NCBI RefSeq assembly: GCF_009768975.1
Contig: NZ_CP035733.1
Coordinates: forward strand, 1,984,001-2,048,000
Reading direction: 5' to 3'
Source of the DNA: Sphingorhabdus lacus
GTDB taxonomy: Bacteria; Pseudomonadota; Alphaproteobacteria; Sphingomonadales; Sphingomonadaceae
DNA: 64,000 nucleotides
A model generated the notes under the pieces. The model did not search any database. It had not been told where the DNA came from and saw nothing but the letters and a program-made list of their open reading frames with translations. Shown here piece by piece: positions 37,911-47,447 of this stretch; the first letter of the stretch is position 1; the number at the start of each line of letters is the position of its first letter. The position numbers and the translations under genes were made by a program.

Positions 37911-38651
37911 ATGCCCGCAACCCCCGCCTGGCCCCCGAAATCCACTCCGCGCCTGTTTGTCGAACAGCCGCTGGCCGAGGGGCAGGATGTCGCCGTGTCC
38001 GGTGGCGCGGCGCATTATCTGATCGGGGTCATGCGGCTGAAAGTGGACGCGCCCGTTGTCCTGTTCGATGATCAAACCGGCGAATATCTCGCCTATGTGG
38101 CGAGCGCGGGGAAGCGCGACCTGACGCTGCATGTGGCGCAACGCTTGCGCCCGCGCGAGGCTGTGCCGGATGTCTGGCTGTGTCAGGCGCTGGTCAAAAA
38201 GGACCGGTTTGACTGGATCGCGGAGAAAGCCTGTGAATTGGGCGCGGCGCGTTTTGTGCCCTTGCTGACGGCTCGCTGCGTCGTGGACAAGGTCAAGGAG
38301 GACAGGCTGCGCGCGCATATGATCGAAGCGGCCGAACAGTGCGAGCGGACGGCCTTACCGGAGATTGCGCCGCTGGCAAAACTCGACGCCCTGCTGCGCG
38401 AATGGCCGGCGGAACGCGCGCTCTATTTCTGTGACGAACGCGGGGGCGTGCCGTTCGGATCGGCTATCAAAGCCGGACCAGCCGCGCTGCTGATCGGGCC
38501 GGAAGGTGGCTTTACCGATGCGGAGAACAGCGCAATCCGCGCGCATCCGGCGGCGGTGGCCGTCTCGCTTGGCCCGCGGATATTGCGCGCCGATACGGCG
38601 GCGGTGGCGGCGCTATCGGTCTGGATGGCGGCGCAGGGCGACTGGGCCTAG
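37911..38651 (+). CDS. rsmE: 16S rRNA m3U1498 methyltransferase
   Basis: 246 aa, SPOUT-class. The N-terminal PUA-like domain (PRLFVEQPLAEGQ, HYLIGVMRLKVDAPV) is followed by the knotted methyltransferase domain with KDRFDWIAEKACELGA, EAAEQCERTALPEI, LLIGPEGGFTDAE and LGPRILRADTAAVAAL, the SAM-binding knot. It methylates N3 of U1498 in the 30S subunit. Its TAG stop overlaps the stop of the convergent adhesin-like gene. Confidence 0.95.
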   Translation: MPATPAWPPKSTPRLFVEQPLAEGQDVAVSGGAAHYLIGVMRLKVDAPVVLFDDQTGEYLAYVASAGKRDLTLHVAQRLRPREAVPDVWLCQALVKKDRFDWIAEKACELGAARFVPLLTARCVVDKVKEDRLRAHMIEAAEQCERTALPEIAPLAKLDALLREWPAERALYFCDERGGVPFGSAIKAGPAALLIGPEGGFTDAENSAIRAHPAAVAVSLGPRILRADTAAVAALSVWMAAQGDWA

Positions 38652-40534
38652 TTCAGGCGCCCGACAAAGGAGATCGAAAAGCTGGATGGCCCCGTGGCGT
38701 TGGCGCCCTGCATCGTCCCCGTCGGCGCGTAACGGAACGCGCGGATGGCGGCGTTATAGCCACTGCCCAACGGCGCCGTAAAAGGCGCGCTTCCCGTGTT
38801 GGAATAGGTCACCATCGTGCCCTGGTTAAACGCATTGAGATTGCTGGGCCTTGCGCCTTCGGTAAAGGTGAAGGGCGTCGAGGCGTCGAGTGTGAAATTC
38901 GGCGGAAATGCATCGACGATGACGATGCTGTTGGCATCGACCGACAAATTGCCGGTATTCTGCACCGTGATGGTATAGCGCACAATCGCGCCGGGAATAG
39001 ATTTGGGATTGGCCGCGCTGACGCCATCGGACAGCACCGTCGATGTCTTTGACACCACCAAAGTCGCATTACCCGCCAGCCGCGTGTTGGTTACGACGCA
39101 ACTGATAACATCACCCAAGACCGGCGTGATATTCCCCGGCACGGTCGTAGGGAAAGTCGTCGTGACCCCGTTGGTCGCGTTCGTGCAGGCGAGAGTGGAC
39201 GTATATTGCGACAGGCTGCCCGGGCCGGACATGATTTCATCCAAGGTGTAGGCGGTCCCCGGCGTGACCTGCACCAAGCCGGTATTTCCGCCGGTCACCG
39301 TGGTGCCAGTGCCGGTCGTTGTAGCCGACGCCACAACGGTCGATGCCTGGTTGATCCGCACGGTAAACTGGTCGGTATTAAATCGCCGTCCCCCTGCGCC
39401 GAGTGCCTTGCTGATCCGGATATGCGGAAAGGCAGCGTTGTTGAACACGCAAATCACCGCATCCCCGAACTGCAACGCGCCAAAATTGTAGCTGGTGGTC
39501 AGCAGGTTGGTGGGCAACGGCGTGGTCGAGCTGGTTGTGGTATTCGTACAGGTCAGCCGGCTTTCATATTTTGCCAGCGTACTAACGCTGCCTGCGGCCA
39601 TGGCCTCGGACAAGGTCAACGGTATGCCGGACGCCAGCGAAAGCGGCGTGGCGGAAAATGGTCCATTTCCGGTCCCGGTCGTGGTGCCGGATGCCAGCGT
39701 CGTTCCCGACGATGTTGCGGACACGCGAAAGGTGAACTGGTCCGCCGCGTTGACGCGTGCGCCGGTGATCGTCTTGCGCAGACGGATCGAGGCGAAGCGC
39801 ACCGCGAACATCGCGCCTTGCAAGCCACCCGCCTGCATATTGGTGGTGACTGTGGTCGGGCTGTTTGACCCGACAATATAGCCCCCGACCGTGCCCGGCA
39901 CGCCCGTTTCGGTGAATGTCGACGTACCGGTTCCGGTGATCGTCGGATAGTTATTGCCGCTGATCGGGTTGACCTGATCCAGGATCTGCCACCCCGTACC
40001 GTTGGTGACGAATTGCAAGTTCTCGCCATCATTGGTGGATTCCGCATCCGCGGCCACAAAAGAGTAAGCAGTCACCGCAGGCGCACCCGGCGGTGGCGTG
40101 ATCGTTATCCCTGAAAAGGTGATCGATTTACTGCCCGCCGCCGAAGTATAGAGCACGGGCCGGCCGGGAATACCGAGAAAGGCTGTGTTGCCGACGGCGG
40201 CCCCGGTCCAGGATGGCGCAGCGATCGAGTTGAACGCAGCCGCGGTCGTCGGTGTCACCTTCAGGTTGAACGACAGCGTCGATCCATCATTCAGGTTGAA
40301 CGAGAAATTCTGACCCGCCGCAGAGCGCGCGGTCGCATCATTATAGGTCGAAAAATCCAGCCAGCAGTAAGTTTCCCACCCCTGCGGCGCGGTGCCTTGC
40401 GACGCAGCGGGCGCACAGCTCTGCGCTTGGGCGGATGTCGATCCGAAGCCCATCAAAAGGACGAACAAAGTCGCCAACAGTAGCCGAAGCCTTTGGGTCA
40501 AAAGTCTTTGCAATGGAGGTCCTGGTCGTAACAC
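38648..40534 (-). CDS. Secreted repeat protein with SpaA/prealbumin-like and DUF11 domains
   Basis: 628 aa with a signal peptide ending near AQAQ. After an N-terminal domain (about 40-245; WETYCWLDFSTYNDATARSA) come two homologous beta-sandwich repeats of about 115 residues (IRLRKTITGARVNAADQFTF and IRISKALGAGGRRFNTDQFT), resembling prealbumin-like folds of surface adhesins. A DUF11-type domain follows (VVSKTSTVLSDGVSAANPKS). The C-terminus ends ISFVGRLN. There is no sortase motif or transmembrane anchor. It is related through the DUF11 part to the two plus-strand genes at 40701 and 42696. Confidence 0.8.
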   Translation of the reverse strand: MLRPGPPLQRLLTQRLRLLLATLFVLLMGFGSTSAQAQSCAPAASQGTAPQGWETYCWLDFSTYNDATARSAAGQNFSFNLNDGSTLSFNLKVTPTTAAAFNSIAAPSWTGAAVGNTAFLGIPGRPVLYTSAAGSKSITFSGITITPPPGAPAVTAYSFVAADAESTNDGENLQFVTNGTGWQILDQVNPISGNNYPTITGTGTSTFTETGVPGTVGGYIVGSNSPTTVTTNMQAGGLQGAMFAVRFASIRLRKTITGARVNAADQFTFRVSATSSGTTLASGTTTGTGNGPFSATPLSLASGIPLTLSEAMAAGSVSTLAKYESRLTCTNTTTSSTTPLPTNLLTTSYNFGALQFGDAVICVFNNAAFPHIRISKALGAGGRRFNTDQFTVRINQASTVVASATTTGTGTTVTGGNTGLVQVTPGTAYTLDEIMSGPGSLSQYTSTLACTNATNGVTTTFPTTVPGNITPVLGDVISCVVTNTRLAGNATLVVSKTSTVLSDGVSAANPKSIPGAIVRYTITVQNTGNLSVDANSIVIVDAFPPNFTLDASTPFTFTEGARPSNLNAFNQGTMVTYSNTGSAPFTAPLGSGYNAAIRAFRYAPTGTMQGANATGPSSFSISFVGRLN

Positions 40535-40614
40535 TCGCGACCATATGTAGCGGGCTAAGGTTAACGACCCGTAATTGTGTTAACTTTTGCCGCAAAATGA
40601 CCAGATTTTACAAA

Positions 40615-40690
40615 TTGGATGTGGGGACTTCTGCCGTTCTTTATTATTAATTAAGTCCTATGCTTTAGCCGTTCCGTTGGATGTGGGGAC
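40615..40690 (+). repeat. 14-bp direct repeat in a divergent promoter region
   Basis: TTGGATGTGGGGAC occurs at 40615-40628 and 40677-40690, the second copy just before the ribosome site of the 40701 gene. The 166-bp region 40535-40700 separates two divergent genes for secreted proteins. The repeats may bind a regulator or reflect local duplication. Confidence 0.5.
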
Positions 40691-40700
40691 CGGAGCGAAA

Positions 40701-42635
40701 ATGAAAATGGGATCGCTTCCTGTTTGGAATGCAACCTTGTTGCGCGCGGTCAGTGCCATTGTGGTGCTGCTGATGATGGCGTGCGGCCTACCCGCATCGG
40801 CTGTCGCGCAGACGGTAACCCAATATACGAATACGACCACCGGAAATATCGTCGACTCGACCAATTGCGCGACCACAGTGACGCGAACATTCACAGTAGG
40901 AACAAGTTTCCTCGTCGCCGACGTCAACCTCGGCGTTTTGCTGAGCCATACCTACCGATCCGATTTGCGTATCACGCTGACCTCGCCGCTGGGAACCAGT
41001 GTCCAGATCATGACCAATGTCGGTGGCGCGGCGGACAATTTGAATGTCCTGTTTGACGACGAAGCGGCTGCGGCGATTTCATCCCATAGTGTGGACGATA
41101 CGACAGGAACAGTTCCCCCTTATTTGCGCACATTCCGGCCGACGGCGGTAATGACCGCATTTGACGGACAAAATGCGCAAGGCGCATGGACCATGGTCAT
41201 TTGCGATTCCGTATCGATAGATGTCGGCACATTCACCCGTGCCGACCTCTATTTGACGAGCGCCCCCGCCAGCTATGCCGATCTTTCGCTCACCAAGACC
41301 GTCAGCAACGCCAACCCGGCGAGCGGCGGCGCGATTTCCTATACTTTGGCCGTCACCAACGCCGCGGGTTCGACGTCCACGGCTTCGGGCGTGACGGTGT
41401 TGGATATCCTGCCCGCCGGGGTTTCCTTTGTCAGCGCCTCCGGCTTTGGCAGCTATGACAGCGCCACCGGAGTCTGGACTGTCGGCAGCATCCCTGCAGG
41501 AACCACCCGGACGTTGACGATAAACGTAACCGTGACGGCAGGGCTTGGAACCACTATCCAGAATGATGCCGAAATCAGCGCATCGTCCGTAGCGGATCTG
41601 GATTCGACGCCGAACAACGCATCCGTAAATGAAGATGATGACGCGGCTGTCAGCTTTACTACGACTGGCACCCGTACCGCCGGTACGCCGCCGACGCTGG
41701 TCTGCCCAAATGGCACGACCCTGCTGGACTGGAACGCGCAAAGCTGGACCAGCGGCAGTTCGACCGGGACCGCGACTGTGGCCAATATCGGCACCATCGG
41801 TTTCAATGTGACCACGCAAGGCACGTTCACCATCCCGTTGCAACTCAACGCGACGATCACGGGCGGATTACCGGGCCAGAACTCGCTGTACCAGAATGTC
41901 GAATATACCACGCGCACGCAAACGACGACGACCGTTGTCACCTTGCCGACCGCGGTGCCCGGCACACAGTTTACGATCTTTGATGTCGACTATGCACCCA
42001 ATGACTTTGCCGACAAGATGACCATCACGGGCAGTTACAATGGTTCGTCGGTTACTCCGACGCTGACCAATGGCATCACCAACTATGTCTTCGGCAATGT
42101 CGCCATCGGCGATGTCACCGCGTCAGACACCACCAGCCAGGGCACGGTCGTTGCAACCTTCGCATCGCCCGTCGATACGATCACGATCGTCTACGGCAAC
42201 CACACGACAGCCCCCGCCGATCCCGACGGGCAAGCCATTGCCATCAACGACTTCACCTTCTGCAATCCGCAAACCACGCTCAGCGTCACCAAGCTGAGCA
42301 CCGTAGTGAGCGACGGTGTCAGCGGCAGCAATCCCAAGTCCGTTCCCGGTGCCATTGTCCGCTATTGCGTGCTCGTGTCCAATTCGGGCAGCGCCACCAG
42401 CAGCAATGTCGTTGCCACCGACAGCATTCCGGCCAATCTGACGTTCGTTCCGGGCAGCATGCTCTCCGGTACATCCTGCGCGGCAGCGACCACGGCAGAG
42501 GATGACAATAATAGCGGCGGCGATGAAACCGACCCGTTCGGTATGGATTTTGCCGGGAATGTCGTGACCGGCCGGGCCGCATCGCTCGGTCCAGCGGCCA
42601 GCTTCGCCATGGTTTTCAATGCAACGGTAAATTAG
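40701..42635 (+). CDS. Secreted P-domain and DUF11 protein
   Basis: 644 aa from the ATG at 40701 (GGAG five bases upstream); the frame begins earlier at 40587, but that part is not a signal sequence. A signal peptide ends at AVAQ. Residues about 35-190 form a proprotein-convertase P domain: DVNLGVLLSHTYRSDLRITL, NLNVLFDDEAAA, and NAQGAWTMVICDS. A DUF11 domain (about 195-315; LSLTKTVSNANPASGGAISY) follows, then a middle beta-rich region and a second DUF11 domain near the C-terminus (SVTKLSTVVSDGVSGSNPKS). No subtilisin-type protease domain accompanies the P domain. Confidence 0.82.
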   Translation: MKMGSLPVWNATLLRAVSAIVVLLMMACGLPASAVAQTVTQYTNTTTGNIVDSTNCATTVTRTFTVGTSFLVADVNLGVLLSHTYRSDLRITLTSPLGTSVQIMTNVGGAADNLNVLFDDEAAAAISSHSVDDTTGTVPPYLRTFRPTAVMTAFDGQNAQGAWTMVICDSVSIDVGTFTRADLYLTSAPASYADLSLTKTVSNANPASGGAISYTLAVTNAAGSTSTASGVTVLDILPAGVSFVSASGFGSYDSATGVWTVGSIPAGTTRTLTINVTVTAGLGTTIQNDAEISASSVADLDSTPNNASVNEDDDAAVSFTTTGTRTAGTPPTLVCPNGTTLLDWNAQSWTSGSSTGTATVANIGTIGFNVTTQGTFTIPLQLNATITGGLPGQNSLYQNVEYTTRTQTTTTVVTLPTAVPGTQFTIFDVDYAPNDFADKMTITGSYNGSSVTPTLTNGITNYVFGNVAIGDVTASDTTSQGTVVATFASPVDTITIVYGNHTTAPADPDGQAIAINDFTFCNPQTTLSVTKLSTVVSDGVSGSNPKSVPGAIVRYCVLVSNSGSATSSNVVATDSIPANLTFVPGSMLSGTSCAAATTAEDDNNSGGDETDPFGMDFAGNVVTGRAASLGPAASFAMVFNATVN

Positions 42636-42695
42636 GCGCGCGAAAAACTCCAAAAACAGGGGTGAATTTTGTGCGGGAGATGATAATCTATAACT

Positions 42696-43631
42696 ATGGT
42701 TATAGATTTGACCCGTCGCACATTATCCGGATGGCTGACCAAGGCCGTGATTTGCGCTGCCATGTTGCTGTGTACGATCACCCCTGGTTTTGCGCAGACC
42801 GCGATCAATTATACCAACACAATTGATGCCGCCATTTCGGAAACCCTGTCCCCCTGCGCAAACCCGTTAAATCGTATTTTCAACGTTCCGGAGACGTATA
42901 CGATAGCCGACGTCAACATCGGGGTTCTGCTTGGCCACACACGGCGGAACAATTTGATCATAACGCTGACGTCCCCTGCCGGCACCAGCGTCACCTTGTT
43001 CCGAAATACCGGGGGATCACGCAGTAATCTCAATGTGCTGTTCGACAGTGCAATTCCGACCTCCGTGAACACGCATACCGCTGCGAACGATACGGCAGTC
43101 GCGACAACGATAGCACCCCCCTATCAGCGCAGCTTTGCACCGGTGCAAAGTTTAAACGTGTTTAACGGCCAGAATGCGAACGGGCCGTGGACATTGAGCA
43201 TTTGTGATAATGCGACGGGAAATGCCGGAACATTTTTCCATTCCACCTTGTCGATCATTCCGCTCCGCGCCACGCTCAGTGTAACGAAGATAAGTGTTGC
43301 GCAATTTGACTCTGTAAGCGCCACGAACCCGAAGTCCGTGCCCGGTGCACGCGTCCGCTATTGCATTACCATTTCCAATAATGGCCCGGGTCTGGCGACG
43401 ACGATCGCAGGCACCGACATCATCCCCCCCAACACAAGCTATGTCCCGAATTCATTACGCTCGGGCAACGACTGCGCGAGCACGTTAACTGCGGAAGATG
43501 ATGACGCCGTGGGTGCCGACGAATCCGATCCGATGGGTGCATCGGTATCGGGATCGGTACTCTCCCTCTCGGCCCCGACAATGGCGAACGCCGCCAGCTT
43601 TGCCCTTGCCTTTCTTGTCACGGTCAACTGA
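42696..43631 (+). CDS. Shorter paralogue: P-domain and DUF11 protein
   Basis: 311 aa with a signal peptide ending at GFAQ. It has the same P domain (DVNIGVLLGHTRRNNLIITL, NLNVLFDSAIPTS, NANGPWTLSICDN) joined directly to a DUF11 domain (VTKISVAQFDSVSATNPKSV, ISNNGPGLATTIAGTD). It corresponds to the two ends of the 40701 gene with the middle part missing, so one arose from the other by duplication and internal gain or loss. The genes are 60 bp apart and probably co-transcribed. The sequence ends in FLVTVN, like FNATVN in the neighbour. Confidence 0.82.
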   Translation: MVIDLTRRTLSGWLTKAVICAAMLLCTITPGFAQTAINYTNTIDAAISETLSPCANPLNRIFNVPETYTIADVNIGVLLGHTRRNNLIITLTSPAGTSVTLFRNTGGSRSNLNVLFDSAIPTSVNTHTAANDTAVATTIAPPYQRSFAPVQSLNVFNGQNANGPWTLSICDNATGNAGTFFHSTLSIIPLRATLSVTKISVAQFDSVSATNPKSVPGARVRYCITISNNGPGLATTIAGTDIIPPNTSYVPNSLRSGNDCASTLTAEDDDAVGADESDPMGASVSGSVLSLSAPTMANAASFALAFLVTVN

Positions 43632-43680: not shown

Positions 43681-45054
43681 ATGAGCACAAAAACAGTTTC
43701 GAATCGCAACGAACCCGTCATCGAAAGCCGCGACCAACTCGTTGCAGCGATCGCCAAGGGAGAGAAACCTAAGGACCGGTGGCGCATCGGGACCGAGCAT
43801 GAGAAATTCGTTTATTGCCGCAAGAATTTCAACGCCCCCTCCTATGACGAACCCGGCGGAATTCGCGACCTGTTGATGGCGCTAACTGAATTTGGTTGGG
43901 CGCCTGTGATGGAAGGCGACAATGTCATCGCGATGAGCGGCCCTGACGGTACAGTCAGTCTGGAACCTGCGGGCCAGTTGGAACTGTCCGGCGCGCCGCT
44001 TGAAAATCTGCACCAGACCTGCGCCGAAACGGGGCGGCATCTGAAACAGGTGAAAGCCATTGGCGAAAAGACTGGCAAGGGCTTTCTGGGTCTAGGCCTG
44101 TGGCCCGACAAGACCCGTGAAGAGCTGCCCATCATGCCCAAGGGCCGCTATGAAATCATGCTGCGCCATATGCCGCGCGTCGGCAGCATGGGTCTCGACA
44201 TGATGCTGCGCACCTGCACCATCCAGGTCAATCTCGATTTTTCGAGCGAAGCCGACATGGCGCACAAATTCCGTACCTCTTTGGCGCTCCAGCCGCTGGC
44301 AACCGCGTTGTTCGCCAACTCACCCTTTCTGGAAGGAAAACCGAACGGTTTCCTGAGCTATCGCAGCCATATCTGGTCGGACACCGATCCACACCGCACC
44401 GGCATGTTACCCTTCGTGTTTGACGACAATTTCGGCTATGAACGTTATGTCGATTATATGCTGAATGTGCCGATGTATTTCGTCTATCGCGACGGTAAAT
44501 ATATCGATGCCGCGGGCCTCGATTTCAAAGATTTCCTGAAGGGTGAATTGTCGGTTCTGCCGGGTGAAAAGCCCACCGTCACCGATTGGGAAGACCATAT
44601 GTCGACCGCCTTTCCCGAGGTCCGGTTGAAAAGCTTCCTCGAAATGCGCGGGGCCGATGGCGGCCCGTGGAACCGCATCTGCGCCCTGCCCGCCTTTTGG
44701 GTCGGATTGCTCTACGATCAGGGCGCGTTGGATGCAGCCTGGGACGAGGTCAAGCATTGGACGATGGAAGAGCGCGAGGCGCTGCGCTCGGCCGTGCCTG
44801 CGCAAGGGCTCAACGCTGCGCTCCCCGGTGGCGGGAAGCTGCTCGACCTTGCAGGGCGCATCCTCGACATTTCCTCGGCAGGCCTGACAGCGCGCGATTG
44901 CCTGAACAGCAGCGGCGACAATGAAACCGGTTTCCTTGATCCGCTGCGCGAAATCGTGGCGTCGGGGAAGACGATGTCGGAACAATTGCTCGACAAATAT
45001 CATGGCGAATGGGGCGGCGATGTGCGCCGTGTCTATGACGAAATGAGCTTCTGA
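43681..45054 (+). CDS. gshA: Glutamate-cysteine ligase, plant type
   Basis: 457 aa. It makes gamma-glutamylcysteine, the first step of glutathione synthesis, using ATP. Family-typical segments: DRWRIGTEHEKFVYC (about 37-51), SLEPAGQLELSGAPL, GRYEIMLRHMPRVGSMGLDM, TCTIQVNLDFSSEADM, and EMRGADGGPWNRICALPAFWVGL. This is the plant/alphaproteobacterial class, with conserved cysteines that may form a redox-sensing disulfide in plants. It is followed by a 152-bp gap with no gene before the receptor. Confidence 0.95.
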   Translation: MSTKTVSNRNEPVIESRDQLVAAIAKGEKPKDRWRIGTEHEKFVYCRKNFNAPSYDEPGGIRDLLMALTEFGWAPVMEGDNVIAMSGPDGTVSLEPAGQLELSGAPLENLHQTCAETGRHLKQVKAIGEKTGKGFLGLGLWPDKTREELPIMPKGRYEIMLRHMPRVGSMGLDMMLRTCTIQVNLDFSSEADMAHKFRTSLALQPLATALFANSPFLEGKPNGFLSYRSHIWSDTDPHRTGMLPFVFDDNFGYERYVDYMLNVPMYFVYRDGKYIDAAGLDFKDFLKGELSVLPGEKPTVTDWEDHMSTAFPEVRLKSFLEMRGADGGPWNRICALPAFWVGLLYDQGALDAAWDEVKHWTMEEREALRSAVPAQGLNAALPGGGKLLDLAGRILDISSAGLTARDCLNSSGDNETGFLDPLREIVASGKTMSEQLLDKYHGEWGGDVRRVYDEMSF

Positions 45055-45206
45055 CCAGCAGTGCAAATCGGCCACAGTAGTGGCAAAAATTGTCGCAAAA
45101 CTGCAATGTGAGGTTGACCCTTTAAACGGGAAGAATGATGGCGCGATTAACGGTGCCGGAAGTGCACCGATTCTTCTTCGATCCATTGACTTTCAGGGAG
45201 TCTCCC

Positions 45207-47447
45207 ATGCGTTCTATCCATTCTACAATCGTATCCGGCGTCGCCATCGCCATTGCCTCCACCAGCCTGTTCGTCGCGCCTGCCGCCGCGCAAGACGCTG
45301 CTGCTGCCGAAGATGAAGGCCTGACCGAAATCGTCGTGACCGCGCAGCGTCGCGAAGAAAATCTGCAGGACATTCCCTTGTCCGTCGACGTTGTTTCGGG
45401 CGAAAAGCTTGATGCGATCAACGCAGGCGGCGGCGACATCCGCGCCTTTGCCGGCCGCGTCCCCAGCTTGAACATCGAAAGCTCGTTCGGCCGCACCTTC
45501 CCGCGCTTTTACATCCGCGGTCTCGGCAACACCGACTTCGACCTCAACGCATCGCAGCCCGTCAGCATCGTCTATGACGATGTCGTTCTGGAAAACCCGA
45601 TCCTGAAAGGCTTCCCCGTATTCGACGTCGATCGCGTCGAAGTCTTGCGCGGACCGCAAGGTACTCTCTTCGGCCGCAACACCCCTGCCGGTATTGTGAA
45701 GTTCGACAGCGTGCGTCCTGACAAGGAAGGCGCCAACTATCTGAAGGCATCTTTCGGCCGGTTCAACACCGCCGGTATCGAAACCGGAATTGGCGGCAAG
45801 GTCACCGACAGCCTGTCGATCCGTGGTTCGCTCTCTTGGCAGCGCCGCAGCGACTGGGTCGACAATATCGACAATTTCAACAATGGCAGCGATCTGGAAG
45901 GCTATGCCGACCTCGCCGCCCGTCTGCAGGTACAATATGCGCCCGCCGACAATGTGAAGCTGCGCGTTACGGGCCAGTATCGCGATTTTGACGGCACCGC
46001 CCGCGTCTTCCGCGCCAACCTGTTCGCACCGGGCACCAACAATCTGGTCGGTCTGGGCGGCGTCAACACCCCGTTCCGCCGGGATCAGGTGCGCGCCGAT
46101 GGCCTGAACTTCCAGAAACTGAAACTGTACAGCGTCGCCAGCAACTTCGAATATGATTTCGGCCCTGCGACCCTGACCTCGGTCACCTCGTGGTGGAGCG
46201 GCAAATATACCAGCCGTGGCGATATTGACGGCGGTGTGCCTGCTGGCCCGGGTTTCATCCCCTTCTCCGCCAACTCGCAGGACGATGTTCCCGATCTCGA
46301 CCAGTTCACGCAAGAACTGCGCATTTCCTCGAACAATGACGAAGGCCTGAAATATCAGGCAGGCGTGTTCTACTTCGACGAAAGCCTCGCCATTGCGTCG
46401 TTCAACTACGATACGCCCACCGGCACCCGCCCCAGCGTAACCGCGCTGCAGCAGCAGGATTCCAAGGCTTGGGGCGTGTTCGGGTCGCTGACCTATCCGG
46501 TAACCGAGCAGCTCTCGCTGACCGCTGGTCTGCGTTACAATGACGACAAGCGTCGTCTGGACGTTGGTCGCGGCGGCTTCTTCGGCGCCATCGGCAATGG
46601 CTTTGCCAAGGTTCAGGACAACAACCTGACCTGGGATGTCAGCGCCACCTACGAAGCGTCGGACGCCGTGAACGTCTATGCCCGCGTGGCCAAGGGCTAT
46701 CGCGCGCCATCAATCCAGGGCCGTGCGCTGTTCGTCTTCACCACGGTTCAGGACGCGATCAGCACCGCCGATTCCGAAACGATCATGTCGTACGAAGCCG
46801 GTATCAAGACGCAGTTCTCCAACCGCCTGCGCTTCAACCTGTCGGCGTTCAAATATGATTTGAACAATGCGCAGTTGACCGCCGTCGGTGGTGCCAGCAA
46901 CGCAGCCCGCCTGATCAACGTCGACAATGTCGCTGGCTATGGCTTCGAAGCCGAGCTGGAGGCACGCCCTGTCGACAATCTCAGTCTGACCGCAGGGATC
47001 AGCTATAACAATGCCGAAATCGACGACGCCAACGCGTTCATCACCGGCTGCGGCGGCGGTTGCACCGTGACCGACCCGGTCCGTCCCGGCAGCCCCGGCA
47101 TCTTCTCGATCGACGGCAACCAATTGCCGCAGGCACCGAAATGGTCGATCAACTGGACCGCAGGCTATGGCGTGCCGGTTGCGGGCGGCGAAATCTATGC
47201 CTTCACCGATTGGGCGTACCGGTCGAACGTCAACTTCTTCCTCTACACCTCGGCAGAGTTTAATGACGACCATATGCTCGAAGGCGGCCTGCGCCTCGGC
47301 TACCGCACCGACCGTTTCGATATTGCCGGCTATGTCCGCAACATCACCAACGACGCGTCGGCCGTGGGCGGCATCGACTTCAACAACCTGACCGGTTTCG
47401 TCAACGAACCGCGGATCTACGGTCTGGAAGCATCGATCAAGTTCTGA
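45207..47447 (+). CDS. TonB-dependent receptor
   Basis: 746 aa from the ATG at 45207, six bases after CAGGGAG; the frame opens at 45135, but the signal peptide starts here and ends at AAAQ. The TonB box-like LTEIVVTAQRREENLQDIP leads into the plug (VDRVEVLRGPQGTLFGRNTPAG, about 115-140). The 22-strand barrel ends with a terminal Phe (LEASIKF). It belongs to the ferric-siderophore/pesticin-type receptors abundant in sphingomonads. The substrate is not indicated by neighbours. Confidence 0.92.
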   Translation: MRSIHSTIVSGVAIAIASTSLFVAPAAAQDAAAAEDEGLTEIVVTAQRREENLQDIPLSVDVVSGEKLDAINAGGGDIRAFAGRVPSLNIESSFGRTFPRFYIRGLGNTDFDLNASQPVSIVYDDVVLENPILKGFPVFDVDRVEVLRGPQGTLFGRNTPAGIVKFDSVRPDKEGANYLKASFGRFNTAGIETGIGGKVTDSLSIRGSLSWQRRSDWVDNIDNFNNGSDLEGYADLAARLQVQYAPADNVKLRVTGQYRDFDGTARVFRANLFAPGTNNLVGLGGVNTPFRRDQVRADGLNFQKLKLYSVASNFEYDFGPATLTSVTSWWSGKYTSRGDIDGGVPAGPGFIPFSANSQDDVPDLDQFTQELRISSNNDEGLKYQAGVFYFDESLAIASFNYDTPTGTRPSVTALQQQDSKAWGVFGSLTYPVTEQLSLTAGLRYNDDKRRLDVGRGGFFGAIGNGFAKVQDNNLTWDVSATYEASDAVNVYARVAKGYRAPSIQGRALFVFTTVQDAISTADSETIMSYEAGIKTQFSNRLRFNLSAFKYDLNNAQLTAVGGASNAARLINVDNVAGYGFEAELEARPVDNLSLTAGISYNNAEIDDANAFITGCGGGCTVTDPVRPGSPGIFSIDGNQLPQAPKWSINWTAGYGVPVAGGEIYAFTDWAYRSNVNFFLYTSAEFNDDHMLEGGLRLGYRTDRFDIAGYVRNITNDASAVGGIDFNNLTGFVNEPRIYGLEASIKF

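Follow-up and report, generated by a model that had tools for sequence, protein, structure and literature searches.

A possible donor-strand surface assembly based on a split DUF11 domain in Sphingorhabdus lacus

The domain family DUF11 is renamed CLIPPER in PMC12617251, passages of which describe its fold as CnaA-like, with a catalytic Asp and a Lys-Asn isopeptide bond that links the first to the penultimate strand, print the triad of the solved structure 9IFR as K715/D748/N806, and count SpaA_3 among the isopeptide families, its triad being Lys-Glu-Asn. In 9IFR, one complete, intramolecular domain belongs to the stalk of one long adhesin, whereas in the system described here a domain of the same fold family, judged by profile, is apparently split between proteins. 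This system comprises three adjacent genes, A, B and C, in a 64,000-nucleotide stretch of Sphingorhabdus lacus DNA (the window in the following; G000:C1:1984001-2048000, with G000:C1 denoting the host contig NZ_CP035733.1), and an operon about 1 Mb away from it, D1-D2-D3-OMP. The host genome consists of a single contig of 3.46 Mb, and we take the host to be a freshwater bacterium.

We propose that A, B, C, D1 and D3 stop two-thirds of the way through a DUF11/CLIPPER domain, leaving an end that carries the isopeptide Lys and the catalytic Asp and would act as an acceptor. The missing third, with the Asn strand, would lie at the N-terminus of mature D1, D3 and OMP and act as a donor. The donor strand of one subunit would complete the acceptor of the next, and the completed domain might then be sealed by a Lys-Asn isopeptide bond. 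OMP, having a donor only, would form the base of this assembly, D1 and D3, having both ends, its links, and B and C (A less surely), having an acceptor only and a variable N-terminal adhesive domain, its tips; D2 could be a non-covalent cap. Assembly would thus be intermolecular, with the subunits in this order, located at the outer membrane and directed at adhesion. We hold the individual parts of this proposal with different confidence. That A, B and C belong to the D1-D2-D3-OMP system is probable. Strand complementation between the two halves, a conclusion from sequence comparison, appears somewhat likely, and the reading of A, B and C as adhesins at the tips of an outer-membrane surface assembly that is built by strand donation, and may be covalent, is marginally so. 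A covalent Lys-Asn bond between subunits seems plausible rather than likely. More tentative again is the broadest version, in which a naturally split isopeptide domain would drive covalent fibre assembly in a Gram-negative bacterium without sortase, chaperone or usher, with D2 as a non-covalent strand-capping chaperone. If the proposal is true, Sphingomonadales chain adhesins covalently to their outer membrane in a sortase-free manner, and many secreted proteins that end in a domain of unknown function have a precise biochemical role for this end. It would furthermore predict exact residues for mutation, provide natural CnaA-type tag/catcher pairs, and explain why P, CshA, Calx-beta-like, GEVED and SpaA proteins have one C-terminus in common in Sphingomonadales.

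By analogy, and as far as passages of PMC9715654 describe it, the thread of Sulfolobus acidocaldarius is the closest precedent for a donor strand combined with an intermolecular isopeptide bond: its subunits are Sec-exported, an N-terminal strand is donated, and there is a candidate cap protein. The bond there, however, links the N-terminal amine to Asn57 two subunits along, whereas we propose a Lys-Asn bond between neighbours, and the archaeal thread is built without an outer membrane; the text of the paper names no DUF11 family. Chaperone-usher pili (type 1/P) have a similar tip/link/base logic, and the N-terminal strand of a neighbour completes an Ig-like domain in them (PMC9715654, same passages), but they differ from the present system in its OMP of about 1,700 amino acids (aa) with a DUF11 of its own and in its potential covalent bond. 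No PapD-like chaperone or usher family was found among the Pfam matches of D1, D2, D3, OMP, A, B and C, the genome as a whole not being searched for them. In split CnaB tag/catcher pairs, as described in parts of PMC5487036, the bond-forming residues lie on separate chains; these pairs are engineered, whereas a naturally split CnaA-like domain is proposed here. The cargo proteins of the type XI secretion system (T11SS) likewise have a variable N-terminus, a common C-terminus and an outer-membrane partner encoded nearby, but this system uses a DUF560 barrel and a TbpB-type C-terminal barrel (PMC12282271, in part). Membership in it was rejected, with no DUF560/Slam or TbpB-type match in the Pfam scan of D1-D2-D3-OMP. 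For the type IX secretion system (T9SS), neither its C-terminal domain nor SprA was matched in Pfam or NCBIfam scans of the cluster and operon proteins, a search that was not genome-wide. Finally, as regards sortase-assembled SpaA pili, A ends in ...FVGRLN without an LPXTG motif; sortase itself was not searched for. Judged by the features tested, the system belongs to none of the chaperone-usher, sortase, T9SS and T11SS classes. Among the papers listed by our PMC searches, none deals with a split DUF11 or a D1-D2-D3-OMP operon, and the relevant passages of PMC8343143 and PMC3751524 contain nothing on DUF11.

Candidate acceptor and donor halves

The genes and modules on which the proposal rests are the following, with coordinates in the window unless the contig is given:

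38648..40534, minus strand: gene A, 628 aa, signal peptide
38651..39073, minus strand: C-terminal module of A, truncated DUF11 type, Lys496 and Asp541 kept
40701..42635, plus strand: gene B, 644 aa from ATG or 682 aa from an upstream TTG, signal peptide
41280..41627, plus strand: complete internal DUF11/CLIPPER domain of B, triad Lys199, Asp235, Asn288
42276..42632, plus strand: C-terminal putative acceptor module of B, Lys531 and Asp574, ends at the stop codon
42696..43631, plus strand: gene C, 311 aa, signal peptide, P domain followed by the C-terminal module
43266..43628, plus strand: C-terminal putative acceptor module of C, Lys198 and Asp241, ends at the stop codon
G000:C1:953885-961680: operon D1-D2-D3-OMP
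G000:C1:955447-956544: D3, 365 aa, same terminal module as A, B and C

A first-pass annotation of the window had described three adjacent secreted proteins sharing DUF11, and this is borne out by the reading frames, their signal peptides and an NCBIfam DUF11-type repeat that scores above its cut-off in A, B and C. Pfam DUF11 (PF01345) is found in B with 107.1 bits (8e-31, two stretches) and in C with 27.3 bits (4.8e-6, cut-off 24.6); at 20.9 bits, A remains below this cut-off. While the C-terminal DUF11 assigned to B and C is indeed present, it is not a complete domain, the match in C covering positions 7-60 of the 114 in Pfam.

In the full-length matches of the examined loci, the terminal module lies 0-1 residues from the stop codon. 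Its Lys and Asp are invariant in 128/128 modules (B 48, C 10, D3 30, D1 30, A 10; one module was counted per locus after a length filter, which left 48 and 10 from 50 B and 11 C proteins). The C-terminal modules have no Asn at the isopeptide position, as the chain stops before the Asn strand. The C-terminal residue was considered as an alternative isopeptide partner and rejected, since it varies between N, D, Q, K, E and P. The full Lys-Asp-Asn triad occurs in one chain in the internal DUF11 of B, where K, D and N are found in 41, 42 and 42 of 51 aligned domains, and in that of OMP, where K382, D417 and N480 are kept in 22/22. A profile of OMP aligns to 9IFR (E 4.2e-6) with Lys, Asp and Asn in register with its triad; phmmer searches with the single internal DUF11 of B or OMP gave no PDB match. 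Against the internal DUF11 profile of B, which has 136 columns, the putative acceptors of B, D3 and D1 cover columns 1-88 when aligned without a partner. The alignment of D2, which lacks the Lys and has an Asn in place of the Asp, also ends at about column 87. A second D2-like, single-domain DUF11 protein of 177 aa is encoded outside both clusters (L011:6466-6999; G000:C1 about 624465-624998). Another secreted protein of the host (L209:1870-2922; G000:C1 about 2236869-2237921) has an acceptor-like end with Lys and Asp; a donor was not recognised in it, and its N-terminal part is similar to other extracellular modules.

The mature N-termini of OMP, D1 and D3 start with an I-x-N-x-A-x-V-x-W motif, followed in OMP and D1 by S-N-x-V, and resemble the final two strands of DUF11. 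The donor Asn is present in 89/90 sequences (OMP 29/30, D1 30/30, D3 30/30), and the donor pattern set for the joining analysis was passed by 28/30 OMP, 29/30 D3 and 30/30 D1 N-termini. When the acceptors of B, D3 and D1 are joined to the N-termini of OMP, D1 and D3, the match to the internal DUF11 profile of B extends to column 134-135, and all nine acceptor-donor pairs gain 14.3-18.1 in score. With 40 column shuffles per pair, 360 in total, the real joined score was never reached, and control N-termini taken from B and D2 scored below the real donors in all pairs. The donors alone land in the last third of the profile in 3/3 cases, albeit weakly. With single sequences and Pfam, the only clear rise was obtained for window C joined to the OMP N-terminus, from 31.0 to 40.2 bits.

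Several observations weigh against a domain split in this manner. Aligned alone by hhalign, the module of C reaches column 114 and that of A column 136 of 136, so that truncation is less clear for these two proteins. With the internal DUF11 of OMP as a second target, joining brought small gains that were no better than those of the D2 control, and an independent DUF11 set was too small and divergent to serve as such a target. In the single-sequence Pfam comparison, the N-terminus of D1 brought a gain of 2.1 and that of D3 one of 1.2, against 2.5 for the control with the B N-terminus, and at two further loci the changes lay between -5.6 and +3.1 (controls +0.6 and -1.7). A hidden Markov model of the last third of the B internal DUF11 missed the N-termini and is too narrow for testing them. 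Structure predictions of B and A were poor, with predicted local distance difference test (pLDDT) values of 40 and 51. Moreover, since D1 and D3 hold both halves, each of them could close on itself. This last point leads to a different explanation, in which D1 and D3 would be circularly permuted DUF11 domains, the modules of A, B and C degenerate stalks without a partner, and all of them ordinary secreted DUF11 adhesins; DUF11 often forms stalks according to parts of PMC9210967 and PMC12617251. It leaves OMP with a donor only and B and C with an acceptor only, and a degenerate domain is unlikely because Lys and Asp are fully conserved in the acceptor-only families (B 48/48, C 10/10, A 10/10). 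We consider this explanation improbable.

OMP and its linkage to the module genes

The operon encodes D1 (340 aa), D2 (158 aa), D3 (365 aa) and OMP (1,705 aa), in this order. The Pfam matches of OMP above cut-off are CarboxypepD_reg, SdrD_B and DUF11 only, and its residues 870-1705 show an amphipathic beta periodicity (z 4.4 and 3.7); a simpler count of alternation was not significant (z 1.5). We regard OMP as a putative outer-membrane barrel. Its residues at about 860-1180 (P0005, L010) have 28-36% identity with other large proteins (975-1,720 aa) from the order and the class, and this recurrence suggests that a wider outer-membrane protein family may exist.

OMP is found in 25/45 genomes of the genus, and module proteins occur in the same 25. 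Among 396 genomes of the order, the module is present in 119 and OMP in 113; once four weak OMP matches (G219, G374, G298, G244) are set aside, 109 genomes have both, ten the module only and none OMP only. Eight of the ten module-only genomes have weak matches and a further one (G202) a frame of 123 residues, which leaves G232 as a real exception. Two qualifications speak against reading too much into these counts: the module protein of G232 is a strong match in a genome with no hit to OMP, and the association arises partly by construction, as D3 in the OMP operon itself carries the module. The G232 protein (L134, G232:C7), the main exception to co-occurrence, has 554 aa and combines the module with a Calx-beta-like region. 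Across 385 genomes of the class there are few matches to the module or to OMP, 10 in each case. One genome of a different family, G488, shows the complete D3-OMP arrangement with the same halves, its OMP being 37% identical.

Gene order provides a more direct link. Outside the genus, 21 loci were selected for having a long module gene in the neighbourhood of OMP. In these 21, the OMP operon includes a B-like gene or another gene of the acceptor-only type, placed downstream of OMP, in several cases with a 4-bp overlap, or ahead of D1; in other sphingomonads, for example, B stands in an operon D1-D2-D3-OMP-B. Elsewhere, B is located between rsmE and gshA, like its counterpart in the window. OMP changes four times by parsimony on a three-gene tree (G001 and G043, which have a divergent gene at the cluster site, were uncounted in one of two parsimony counts). 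Three independent supported pairs differ in OMP, and the cluster, which lies between rsmE and gshA, is lost alongside it in 3/3. This, too, must be set against the proposal, as three loss events are too few for significance (sign test, p 0.25).

Operon linkage and a common distribution with OMP would also be expected if the C-terminal module were a sorting signal by which OMP exports cargo in a T9SS- or T11SS-like manner, the N-terminal strands of D1, D3 and OMP being unrelated to it. The variety of N-termini that precede this one C-terminus (P, Calx-beta-like, CshA_NR2, GEVED and SpaA_3) fits such a signal and mirrors the cargo described in the passages of PMC12282271. What it leaves unexplained is the invariance of both isopeptide residues and the extension of the DUF11 match upon joining the N-termini, and no known secretion-barrel family is among the Pfam matches of OMP; a sorting signal of this kind appears unlikely to us, if less so than the self-closing domains above.

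Architecture and history of the rsmE-gshA cluster

The remaining features of the cluster and its borders are:

39434..39790, minus strand: SpaA_3 domain 1 of A, candidate isopeptide triad Lys254/Glu310/Asn365-366
39080..39424, minus strand: SpaA_3 domain 2 of A, candidate triad Lys376/Glu433/Asn483, invariant in 9/9 sequences
40917..41240, plus strand: P_proprotein domain of B, residues 73-180, Pfam E 2e-12
41661..42335, plus strand: conserved middle domain of B, about 225 aa, 30 sequences aligned
42906..43238, plus strand: P_proprotein domain of C, residues 71-181, Pfam E 5.5e-12
37911..38651, plus strand: rsmE-like flank, left border of the insertion site
43681..45054, plus strand: gshA-like flank, right border of the insertion site

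Gene A, which has orthologues over 500+ residues in 10/45 genomes of the genus, encodes a signal peptide, a conserved N-terminal region of about 210 aa without a Pfam match, two SpaA_3 domains and the acceptor-type module. The SpaA-like repeats that had been noted in this divergent gene correspond to two stretches of Pfam SpaA_3 (2e-66). In the first of them, K254, E310 and N366 are invariant in 9/9 sequences, with a spacing that matches the SpaA_3 triad printed in the available passages of PMC12617251. Gene B follows the layout P domain, DUF11, middle domain, C-terminal acceptor-type module, and its middle domain has no Pfam or PDB match. The P domains indeed come without proteases: the Pfam scan finds no protease domain in A, B or C, and the whole genome holds only two P domains and two SpaA_3 domains, all of them in this cluster. 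On these grounds, a protease-associated role of the P domains was rejected. Adhesion or surface assembly remains the best class of function, and it is this part of the initial assignment that the proposed assembly makes more specific.

The cluster had initially been ascribed to recent duplication and domain shuffling, and a recent origin of three adhesive surface genes in this way is suggested by the adjacency of B and C and by the two end domains they have in common. Their relatives tell otherwise. The C orthologues at the rsmE-gshA site of G016, G022 and G019 have 84, 80 and 69% identity to C, as compared to about 40% between C and B. In the P-domain tree, the domains of window B and C fall into different supported clades, and in the tree of C-terminal modules each window module joins, with support, only its own orthologues. 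The comparison of P and DUF11 parts, proposed as a check on the duplication, thus has B and C grouping with their own orthologues, the outcome that the first-pass annotation had named as refuting it; a recent tandem duplication was rejected, and we regard the entire scenario as very improbable.

Domain shuffling, by contrast, is supported and can be placed in the N-terminal domain. The C-terminal module of the B protein of G019 belongs to the clade of window B (99, supported), while its P domain belongs to another supported clade, which points to an exchange of the N-terminal domain. At the same site or operon place, relatives have N-termini of the P, Calx-beta-like, GEVED or an unrecognised type, or CshA_NR2 with GEVED (L132); the Calx-beta-like assignments are under the cut-off (E 1e-5 to 8e-4). 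The middle part of B had been taken for an insertion, a view that the distribution of the two forms does not support. The long form, P-DUF11-middle-module, is present in other genera, whereas short P-module proteins are confined to this genus among the fetched loci, and gene C itself matches in 13/41 relatives searched, all within the genus (the named ones being S. profundilacus, S. contaminans and a metagenome-assembled genome labelled Sphingopyxis). Because the B architecture occurs in other genera, it is likelier that C is a copy that was shortened than that B was expanded, that is, on sequence grounds, a deletion in C is more likely than an insertion in B.

B- or C-type genes lie at the rsmE-gshA site in the fetched loci of the genus wherever the site is covered. 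Across the 45 genomes of the genus, the gshA-adjacent site holds a B- or C-like module gene in 21 and is empty in 22; 20 of the empty sites are in genomes without OMP and two (G013, G023) in genomes with it. In G001 and G043, the site is taken by a different protein of 417 aa with a divergent terminal module (L187:8173-9426, L177:7880-9133), and an A homologue of G001 lies away from it (L046). A scan for promoters and terminators yielded nothing usable, with one promoter-like site against 2.7 expected and seven terminator-like sites against 5.6 expected. Beyond gshA, the window continues with a TonB-dependent-receptor-like gene (45135-47447), which stays beside gshA in most of the relatives fetched early.

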